Below are positions 16,464-59,340 of a stretch of DNA of 64,000 nucleotides, in pieces. The notes beneath the pieces were generated by a model. It saw only the letters and a program-made list of their open reading frames with translations. It was not told the origin of the DNA and searched no databases. Positions within the stretch are counted from its first letter, which is position 1, and each line of letters starts with the position of its first letter. The stretch covers positions 124,001 to 188,000 of the forward strand of contig NZ_VAJM01000004.1 in the NCBI RefSeq assembly GCF_005771675.1. Reading direction: 5' to 3'. The position numbers were made by a program, and so were the translations under genes. The DNA is from Hymenobacter jeollabukensis (GTDB lineage Bacteria; Bacteroidota; Bacteroidia; Cytophagales; Hymenobacteraceae).

Positions 16464-16663
16464 GTCATTGCGAGCGAAGCGAAGCAACCGTAGGAAGACG
16501 TAGCCAATCCTTCCTCTAGTAGCACCGCCGATAGAATTCCTACTGTCCGAAAACGGCACCGCCCGAAACTGGTATCTGCAGTTTCGGGCGGTGCTGTTTT
16601 GGTTGTGCCAGTTGGGCCGTTGGTACCGCGAGAGGAAAGATTACTCTCTTTGCTCGCAATGAC
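16464..16663. mobile_element. Dispersed inverted-repeat element, GTCATTGCGAGC type, gene-less
   Basis: It begins GTCATTGCGAGCGAAGCGAA (16464) and ends GCTCGCAATGAC (16663). Inside is a 21-bp imperfect stem (16551-16571 with 16579-16599, one mismatch) carrying CACCGCCCG/CGGGCGGTG. The left arm also contains CCTTCCTCTAGTAGCAC, shared with the copies at 59171 and, in variant form, 21874 and 56132. It lies between convergent genes. Confidence 0.8.
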
Positions 16664-21855: not shown

Positions 21856-21873
21856 GCGGCGGTAGCACTGGCA

Positions 21874-22372
21874 GTCATTGCGAGCAACGCGAAGCAATCT
21901 TTCCTCTCGTGGCACAACGTTACAAAACGCACCAACCGAAAATCGGCGGCAATGATGGTGGCGCCGGTGACCGTGGGCACAACGTCCCAACTGGCATAAA
22001 CCGAAAACCATGCACCATTACTACGTTTACATCCTCACAAACCAGAACAGCACCGTGCTCTACGTCGGCGTGACCAACGACCTGATACGCCGCGTGGCCG
22101 AGCATCGGGAAGGCCAGCACAAAGGCTTTACCAAGCGCTACAACCTCAATAAGCTGGTCTACTTCGAGGAGTATCCCGATGCAAAAGCCGCTATTGCGCG
22201 GGAAAAGCAACTCAAGCCTGGCAATAGGCAGAAGAAGCTGGACGCAGTAAATGCGGTGAATCCTAATTGGGCGGAGCTATTGCCGGAATAGGGGAGGTGC
22301 CGTTTTCGGTTGCTGCTAGGTGGGACGCTTGTGCCACGAGAGGAACGATTGCCGCGCTTCGCTCGCAATGAC
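21874..22372. mobile_element. GTCATTGCGAGC inverted-repeat element enclosing a GIY-YIG gene
   Basis: The left arm (about 21874-21943) and the right arm (about 22303-22372) are inverted copies of each other over about 70 bp: both read GTCATTGCGAGC, then a CAATC.TTCCTCTCGTGGCA core, then end ACCGAAAA. The whole unit is 499 bp and its only gene is the GIY-YIG gene at 22010-22291. Gene-less copies with the same arms lie at 16464, 56132 and 59171. Confidence 0.8.
22010..22291 (+). CDS. GIY-YIG nuclease domain protein (UPF0213/YhbQ-like)
   Basis: 93 aa, a single GIY-YIG domain. The GIY motif is YVYIL (residues 5-9), the YIG motif YVG (18-20), the conserved arginine is in NDLIRR (27/28) and the catalytic glutamate is in IAREKQLK (Glu 65). 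KRYNLNKLVYFEEY is typical of the short YhbQ-like group. GIY-YIG domains cut DNA in homing endonucleases, repair enzymes and restriction enzymes; the role of the stand-alone short form is not known. The gene lies exactly inside the inverted arms of a dispersed repeat, in the same way as DUF559 at 10775, which suggests a role in repeat mobility or maintenance (inference). Confidence 0.92.
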   Translation: MHHYYVYILTNQNSTVLYVGVTNDLIRRVAEHREGQHKGFTKRYNLNKLVYFEEYPDAKAAIAREKQLKPGNRQKKLDAVNAVNPNWAELLPE

Positions 22373-22419
22373 TGCGGGTGCTACCGTCGGCAGCGGCCCG
22401 CTGCCACCCGCGCCGCCGC

Positions 22420-47431: not shown

Positions 47432-47556
47432 CCAGAACGTCATGTCGAGCGCAGCCGAGACATCTCGCTGGATAGTAATTTCTTCGTTGAACAAGCAGAT
47501 TACTTGTGGCAGTTAGCACGCGAGATGTCTCGGCTGCGCTCGACATGACGTTCTGG
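47432..47556. mobile_element. Dispersed inverted-repeat element, GTCATGTCGAGC type
   Basis: CCAGAACGTCATGTCGAGCG at the left and its inverse at the right (to 47556); arms continue through CAGCCGAGACATCTCG. It lies between the terminator of the response regulator gene and the end of ade. Confidence 0.8.
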
Positions 47557-55090: not shown

Positions 55091-55214
55091 ACGTCATTCC
55101 GAGCGAAGTCGAGGAATCTCGCGTGCTGACTTCAGATAGTATAATCTTCGTTCAACGAGGAATTTACTATCCAGGTAAACACGCGAGATTCCTCGACTTC
55201 GCTCGGAATGACGT
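55091..55214. mobile_element. Dispersed inverted-repeat element, GTCATTCCGAGC type
   Basis: ACGTCATTCCGAGCGAAGTC at the left (55091) is matched in inverse orientation at the right (to 55214); the arms are identical for about 35 bp, through GAGGAATCTCGCGTG. No gene inside. Confidence 0.85.
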
Positions 55215-56131: not shown

Positions 56132-56315
56132 GTCATTGCGAGCGAAGCGAAGCAATCTTTCCTCTCGTGGCATGACGCTACAACAAGCACGAACCGAAAA
56201 CATCACCGCCCGATACCAGCAGCTGCAGCTTCGGTCAGCATTGTTTTCGGTGAGCATGGATTGAATCGGCGGTGCTCCTGGAGGAAGGATTGCTTCGGCT
56301 GCGCCTCGCAATGAC
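56132..56315. mobile_element. Dispersed inverted-repeat element, GTCATTGCGAGC type, gene-less
   Basis: It starts GTCATTGCGAGCGAAGCGAA (56132) and ends CTCGCAATGAC (56315). The left arm (CAATCTTTCCTCTCGTGGCA, then ACCGAAAA) is the same as the arms of the GIY-YIG-bearing copy at 21874. 184 bp; only a degenerate hairpin inside. Confidence 0.8.
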
Positions 56316-57754: not shown

Positions 57755-57892
57755 ACGTCATTCAGAGCGCAGCGAAGAATCTCGCGTGCTGACGTTGAGC
57801 AACCACCATTGAACGTCATGCGGAGCGCAGCCGCAGCATCTCTACTGAACAACGAAGCGGTAGAGATGCTGTGGCTGCGCTCCGCATGACGT
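57755..57892. mobile_element. Composite of GTCAT-type repeats: one solo arm plus one full element
   Basis: A solo arm ACGTCATTCAGAGCGCAGCG...ATCTCGCGTG (57755 to about 57800) has no inverse partner. Adjacent is a complete small element (57813-57892) with ends ACGTCATGCGGAGCGCAGCC and its inverse. They belong to two subtypes that differ in the bases after GTCAT. Confidence 0.75.
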
Positions 57893-59170: not shown

Positions 59171-59340
59171 GTCATTGCGAGCAACGCGAAGCAATCCTTC
59201 CTCTAGCAGCAGAAACGCCACAACCAGCACTACCCCAAAACAGCACCGCCCGACTCTGCAGACGCCGGTTTCGGGCGGTGCTGTTTTAGTGGTTAGCACG
59301 TTGTACAGGACCGATTGCTTCGGCTGCGCCTCGCAATGAC
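59171..59340. mobile_element. Dispersed inverted-repeat element, GTCATTGCGAGC type, gene-less
   Basis: GTCATTGCGAGCAACGCGAA (59171) to CTCGCAATGAC (59340), 170 bp. An inner perfect 17-bp stem (59237-59253 with 59271-59287) carries ACAGCACCGCCCG/CGGGCGGTGCTGT, the same as in the copy at 16464. No gene. Confidence 0.8.

Follow-up and report, generated by a model that had tools for sequence, protein, structure and literature searches.

A short GIY-YIG nuclease gene within paired GTC-tagged REPs of Hymenobacter: a candidate counterpart of the REP/RAYT system

The closest described system is the REPtron, a RAYT enzyme of the Y1/HUH transposase class together with its GTAG REPs, in which a short tag plus hairpin repeat exists in many gene-less and few gene-bearing copies. 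According to the portions of the survey by Di Nocera et al. (2013, PMC3733652) drawn on here, GTAG REPs are moved by RAYTs. Two inverted REPs form the REPIN, a gene-less unit of mobile appearance, and REPINs have been described as partners of RAYTs. A second kind, the CGTC REP, is defined in the same portions of the survey by a CGTC or TGTC tag, a stem of 8-9 bp starting with AT, a loop of 4-5 and a tail CCA, with units arranged mainly in outward or head-to-head pairs; S. meliloti, A. lipoferum and Neisseria are among the hosts, and the CGTC-1 elements in Neisseriae are dRS3. In that text the CGTC REPs "apparently lack a dedicated transposase" and no RAYT was found flanked by them, so far as the portions used here extend, which leaves a widespread class of bacterial repeats with no enzyme assigned to its spread (PMC3733652). 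On the protein side, the nearest comparisons are UPF0213 (YhbQ/YazA), single GIY-YIG domains of about 90-100 aa, and Slx1, a GIY-YIG enzyme that cuts branched DNA.

The element described here lies in a stretch of 64,000 nucleotides from Hymenobacter jeollabukensis (the window), in a genome of 6.18 Mb in 27 contigs (G000). It is a 499-bp inverted-repeat element at 21874-22372, downstream of a radC-like gene, whose ends are GTCATTGCGAGC and its inverse and whose arms are REP-type repeats consisting of a GTC tag and a hairpin. The left REP (21874..21898, + strand) carries the GTC tag followed by an ATTGC...GCAAT hairpin, the right REP (22348..22372, - strand) is inverted with its tag outward, and between them a single intact reading frame (22010..22291, + strand, stop included) encodes a 93-aa single-domain GIY-YIG nuclease. 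The original prediction, that 70-bp arms are inverse copies of each other and enclose this gene only, is borne out: in a local alignment with the reverse complement the arms are 82% identical over 92 columns, spanning about 21857..21947 on the + strand and 22299..22389 on the - strand, and the arm score of 93 exceeds every control interval, the largest control reported being 42. The similarity extends 17 bp beyond the GTC ends (21857-21873 and 22373-22389), and a repeat reaching 17-40 bp past the tags was also seen in some other elements (L035, L036, L239), as if the unit had inserted into a hairpin or flanking DNA had been duplicated in inverted orientation.

GIY-YIG is the only Pfam family found in the protein (E 1.8e-17), with no HUH or catalytic-tyrosine transposase domain, and a search of NCBIfam gave no match. 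In the structure model, built on a 15-row alignment with a mean pLDDT of 91.3, the best solved match is UPF0213 BH0048 (1zg2, E 1.2e-4), followed by Slx1 bound to Slx4 (E 0.013 and weaker); a sequence profile also finds 1zg2, together with 1ywl, the other of the two nearest solved relatives. Among the residues that do not vary across 16 diverse members are Y18, R28, H32, E65 and N84, which we take to correspond to the GIY-YIG active site. The kinship with UPF0213 is remote, and the label "YhbQ-like" of the original prediction has to be given up: on the tree, E. coli YhbQ stands far apart together with one protein from Radiobacillus and one from a Xanthomonas plasmid (yhbQ with L072 and L071 at distances of 1.7-2.2, all others at 4.3 or more), and none of these three sampled members has arms, E. 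coli YhbQ reaching an arm score of 16. Slx1, similar in fold, is in turn a larger repair enzyme with a RING domain and Slx4 as its partner. With respect to anti-phage defence, PADLOC returned 0 families for 2 proteins.

Three gene-less outward-facing REP pairs of the same ATTGC type, as had been predicted, are recognised by sequence and arm alignment at 16464..16663 and 56132..56315 and, by sequence and comparison with the relative G002, where only a partial REP remains, at 59171..59340. Their arm cores had been called the same as those of the gene-bearing element, which holds for one arm of each copy, aligning over 69-81 columns (56132: 61 of 69 identical), and fails for the other, which matches over the REP itself only (24-28 columns at 16464, 34-36 columns at 56315 and 59340). 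In the gene-less elements at 16464-16663 and 59171-59340 a strong internal palindrome (GCACCGCCCGA...TCGGGCGGTGC) stands at the place that the gene occupies in the gene-bearing element. Sister stem types add further gene-less outward pairs to those listed before, likewise read from sequence and alignment: an ATGTC pair at 47439..47549, of the type found around the other two GIY-YIG genes of the genome, an ATTCC pair at 55093..55212 and an ATGCG pair at 57815..57890, next to which a single ATTCA REP is located at 57757..57780 (+ strand).

The genome-wide search for the arms that had been proposed yielded 96 copies of the exact 12-mer in 6.18 Mb, with none for the reversed control. A looser pattern, written for related stems that end in ATCTC, matched 351 times and its control once; the ATTGC stem is in none of the listed matches to the looser pattern. 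Within the window alone the 12-mer with 2 mismatches is weakly significant (13 matches against 7.6 expected, 4 of 100 shuffles being as high). The stem is maintained as a pairing, the complement of the 5-nt stem following in 43 of 66 arms, compared with 7.3 on average and at most 15 for shuffled stems. In the window and 240 kb of contig 1 (304 kb together), outward orientation was seen for 18 of 19 neighbouring REPs separated by less than 300 bp, and the gene-bearing element is the only outward pair 300-4000 bp apart, on which ground another transposon with the same ends was rejected for this part of the genome. These repeats are high-copy short palindromes with an unpaired tag, their units paired in opposite orientation, as is the case for REPs in general; a chance origin is ruled out by the reversed-pattern controls and the control intervals. 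No Rfam match, which would have indicated a structured RNA family, was obtained for window positions 15000-61000.

A protein search of the genome found exactly three genes of this GIY-YIG type, and all three are located inside inverted arms. The other two proteins are 54-57% identical to that of the window, and their arms, of the sister type GTCATGTCGAGC, measure 61 bp at 89% and 55 bp at 93% identity. An internal positive control is provided by the single Y1_Tnp (RAYT-like) gene detected in the genome (L331, G000:C3:154920-155255): it is enclosed by its own, unrelated inverted arms of 50 bp and GGTACTACGACT type (score 80), and its locus yielded no GTC REP. A RAYT as the mover of the GTC REPs in this genome was rejected accordingly, and two REP systems with different enzymes may share it.

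Empty sites in relatives had been suggested as a check, and the element is indeed present or absent at orthologous sites. At the radC site it occurs in G000 and G006 and is absent in G002, G001, G003, G004 and G007, the site in G005 being cut by a contig end; in G002, whose radC is 95% identical, the flanks of the element align to within 7 bp of each other. The L042 site holds a gene element in G000, a gene-less ATGCT pair in G002, a gene-less ATCCT pair in G006 and nothing in G001, G003, G004 and G005. In G007 this site (L307, G007:C1 about 2613283-2613748) is occupied by a different small ORF between other, A+T-rich inverted arms; the ORF resembles, in our estimation, a four-helix-bundle protein of the 23S rRNA intervening-sequence type, and may represent a further small protein borne by a repeat element. 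The L034 site has the gene element in G000 and G005, gene-less pairs in G001 and G003, a single REP in G006, another palindrome in G002 and nothing in G004 and G007. Such sites look repeatedly used, and their polymorphism fits gain or loss alike. At these sites, the junctions of which are known only approximately, no target-site duplication was seen, nor was any movement observed; both points count against a REPtron-like reading. The arrangement had also been thought open to a reading as two unrelated insertions on either side of a fixed gene, which was discarded in view of the similar arm pairs at unrelated sites and the absence of the whole unit in G002.

The association of gene and arms extends well beyond this genome. 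In the genus, each of 8 genomes gave matches, 25 in total when fragments and hits at contig ends are counted, and 18 of these have inverted GTC arms; among the seven matches lacking them, two are located at the end of a contig and a third is a short fragment. In the family the gene is present in 87 of 100 genomes. After removal of duplicates, proteins below 75 aa, stops and short flanks, 114 loci were reduced to 100 genes, of which 73 have inverted arms at a threshold score of 35, compared with 0 of 2000 control intervals (random, of the same length, in the same loci); for the family, this answers in the affirmative the question, raised before, whether short GIY-YIG genes are flanked by arms more often than random. 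Since many of these loci are orthologous, they were grouped by their outer flanks into 54 sites; at 47 of these one or more members are flanked, and at 46 most members are. The largest family site, with arms in only 3 of 17 members, counts against a REPtron-like reading. A phylum sample of 148 genomes contains the gene in 91, in up to 20 copies, with arms at 10 of 29 usable loci versus 0 of 580 controls. A wide sample comprised the best 80 of at least 578 confirmed relatives, 76 of them with enough flank; here arms were found at 34 of 76 loci versus 3 of 1600 controls, and at 24 of 76 versus 0 of 1600 at the stricter score of 45, the 34 armed loci belonging, by record title, to about a dozen phyla.

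Real genes in the loci of the same best 80 of at least 578 relatives gave a similar result, arms enclosing 33 of 73 GIY-YIG genes compared with 14 of 375 other ORFs (small ORFs, 0 of 110). In plasmid loci 8 of 14 GIY-YIG genes score, and the 5 of 64 other ORFs that score there too (4 of 19 among small ORFs) count against the association. Outward REPs on both sides were present at 48 of 76 loci of the wide sample, again the best 80 of at least 578, against 79 of 2280 intervals; on the adverse side, inward-facing pairs are also frequent in it (26 of 76 against 77 of 2280), and the outward count drops to 9 of 76 when a stem of at least 6 bp is required, a strict hairpin scan that is too strict for these repeats. 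Genes without recognisable arms, likewise counted against, make up 27 of the 100 family genes, 19 of 29 in the phylum sample and 42 of 76 in the wide sample (best 80 of at least 578), where the presence of arms is scattered over the protein tree, with 43 changes compared with 40-58 in shuffles. That most such genes would lack arms had been named as the finding that would speak against the proposal; it does not apply to the family, and in the wider samples, judged by the threshold used for the family, fewer than half are armed (34 of 76 among the best 80 of at least 578, and 10 of 29), far above the controls.

Within the phylum, ATTGC-type REPs were detected in 46 of the 148 genomes (reversed control 0 in all listed), and the gene occurs in 39 of these 46 compared with 52 of the 102 others (Fisher one-sided p 5e-5, for the ATTGC stem type and uncorrected for kinship). 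Two results count against the association: at 10 or more REPs the difference is not significant (8 of 11 versus 83 of 137, p 0.32), and no gene was detected in 7 of the 46 REP-bearing genomes. One of these seven, G009, contains 430 REPs of the ATTGC type, and a GIY-YIG gene of this group was not detected in it. In the 400 kb of G009 that were scanned, about a tenth of the genome, a 431-aa ORF, which we take for an IS110-type transposase, lies inside one outward REP pair. Transposases of this type are known to insert into REPs.

A tree was calculated for the 100 family proteins, 70 of which could be labelled by the five bases following GTC; it requires 21 changes of label, as opposed to 43-52 in 300 shuffles, although it has few columns and many unresolved forks. 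Within the 15 genomes that hold at least two labelled genes (35 genes), 12 changes were counted, and 2000 within-genome shuffles never gave fewer than 14. Judged from the sequences, the stem type of the arm goes with the protein clade, within genomes as well. As gene and arms are physically linked, this congruence indicates that the unit travels together and not that the protein recognises its arm; it is compatible with arm recognition and no proof of it. Among 313 protein pairs at least 75% identical, 215 occupy sites without flank homology, 85 are homologous on both sides and 13 on one side, so that related units sit at many places.

Taken as a whole, the observation has been confirmed and is larger than the original prediction stated; its autonomous/non-autonomous pattern and its analogy to REP and RAYT are sustained by the three armed genes of this genome, the excess of arms in the family, the 46-47 of 54 flanked sites and the site polymorphism. 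The resemblance to the REPtron includes the tagged hairpin repeats with many gene-less and few gene-bearing copies, the presence of several repeat types in one genome, every type with an enzyme type of its own, and the gene flanked by the genome's own REP type, whereas the enzyme is a GIY-YIG nuclease instead of a Y1/HUH transposase and the tag is GTC instead of GTAG. The element would work like REP and RAYT; strictly it is no REPtron, because the enzyme class differs. The most probable reading, to which we assign a probability of roughly 0.65, is a REPtron-like REP system in which a GIY-YIG nuclease takes the place of the RAYT transposase. Its repeat unit is a REP in which an imperfect hairpin follows the GTC tag (often CGTC or TGTC); units form mainly outward-facing gene-less pairs, and a few pairs per genome enclose a single-domain GIY-YIG gene, each protein clade having its own arm stem. 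The nuclease would recognise the hairpin of its own REP type, folded from single-stranded DNA or extruded as a cruciform, and would cut near the tag, whereupon replication or repair could place a copy at a new intergenic site, for the benefit of the gene-bearing element and, in trans, of the gene-less pairs. GIY-YIG enzymes hydrolyse DNA without a covalent intermediate, and joining would therefore fall to host repair. A role of the protein in spreading the repeats, in the wording of the original prediction, is not supported as written. The sequences show the anatomy and copy number of the element, its association with arms across distant bacteria, the linkage of arm type and protein clade and the polymorphism of sites; mobilisation by the nuclease, with hairpin recognition, cutting at the tag, copying and action in trans, is what we infer.

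Several other explanations have to be weighed. The gene could be a free-standing homing endonuclease that invades REP pairs as its target, the REPs being spread by something else: it does lie between REPs, gene-less pairs far outnumber gene-bearing ones, some genomes have many REPs and no detected gene, and homing enzymes of the I-TevI type share the fold, if as a weak match. Homing should leave behind an identical REP pair lacking only the gene, and no such pair was found at L042 or L034, where the orthologous sites read hold gene-less pairs with other stems or nothing, while the radC site in G002 is empty; moreover, no other mover with these arms appeared in 304 kb, and the arms of the Y1 transposase are unrelated. 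This explanation is regarded as unlikely. REP palindromes are expected to impede replication, and Slx1 and UvrC are repair nucleases with this very fold, from which one might picture an enzyme, of the host or of the element, whose task in repair or silencing is to trim, resolve or police REP hairpins and which is kept nearby without moving the REPs. The location of the gene inside the repeat itself, its presence or absence between close relatives and the similar proteins at unrelated sites make such a function very improbable.

The gene might also be a passenger caught between REPs whose movement depends on a different enzyme, for instance a RAYT, and the genome does have one Y1_Tnp gene. We consider a passenger highly doubtful, given that the family recurs inside arms of this kind in about a dozen phyla (judged by record title, among the best 80 of at least 578 relatives) with its reading frame kept, and that the Y1_Tnp gene here has unrelated arms. 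RAYTs are known to move GTAG REPs, yet the portions of the 2013 survey used here report no RAYT flanked by CGTC REPs (PMC3733652).

The protein query matched 38 records of a plasmid collection, 14 of which were examined. Clear inverted arms were found at 8 of the 14, from Rhizobium, Shinella, Sinorhizobium meliloti, Azospirillum lipoferum, Aeromonas, Neisseria gonorrhoeae, Novosphingobium and Sphingobium, weak arms in the Planktothrix and Spirosoma records, and none at those of Photobacterium, Rhizobium tumorigenes, Xanthomonas and Radiobacillus. The arms consist of CGTC, a stem beginning with AT and a short loop, in most cases followed by a CCA tail, or of sequences that differ little from this scheme. 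Those of L063-L066, read directly, fit the CGTC REP definition, and a Micavibrio relative (L125, among the best 80 of at least 578) has CGTC-type arms as well. In the terms given by the cited portions of the survey (PMC3733652), the Aeromonas, Azospirillum and Neisseria arms fit a stem of 8, a loop of 4 and a tail CC(A), and those of S. meliloti a stem of 9, a loop of 5 and a tail CCA; the Neisseria arms would be dRS3, in line with the CGTC-1 statement in that source. On sequence grounds, the arms in Neisseria, rhizobia, Azospirillum and the Micavibrio relative thus fit the CGTC-tagged REPs as far as that source describes them. The Hymenobacter arms share the GTC tag, the AT start and the outward pairs, but their perfect stems, of about 5 bp, are shorter and their loops longer, and a gene lies inside where the cited text reports no dedicated transposase.

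The same pairing of enzyme and repeat in distant bacteria suggests that the enzyme may spread or maintain these repeats. We lean, with some reserve, towards the wider proposal that short GIY-YIG nucleases are the missing dedicated mobilisers of CGTC-type REPs across bacteria, from Neisseria dRS3 and the rhizobial repeats to Hymenobacter, and would represent an ancient transposition-like system parallel to RAYT and REPIN that relies on hydrolytic, hairpin-specific cutting and host repair and not on HUH strand transfer. If true, the GIY-YIG partner would answer how CGTC REPs spread, give a function to a common, unassigned family of small proteins and bring into REP mobility a second class of enzyme with a different chemistry; a single 93-aa protein and short hairpin oligonucleotides suffice for a direct test of the question. 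A literature search limited to open-licence PubMed Central papers returned no earlier report joining GIY-YIG to REPs, and a Moraxella paper does no more than list both genes in a table. Among the plasmid records, the REP-flanked GIY-YIG gene of A. lipoferum (L064, 3989-4282) is situated between sufB and sufC of the suf gene cluster.
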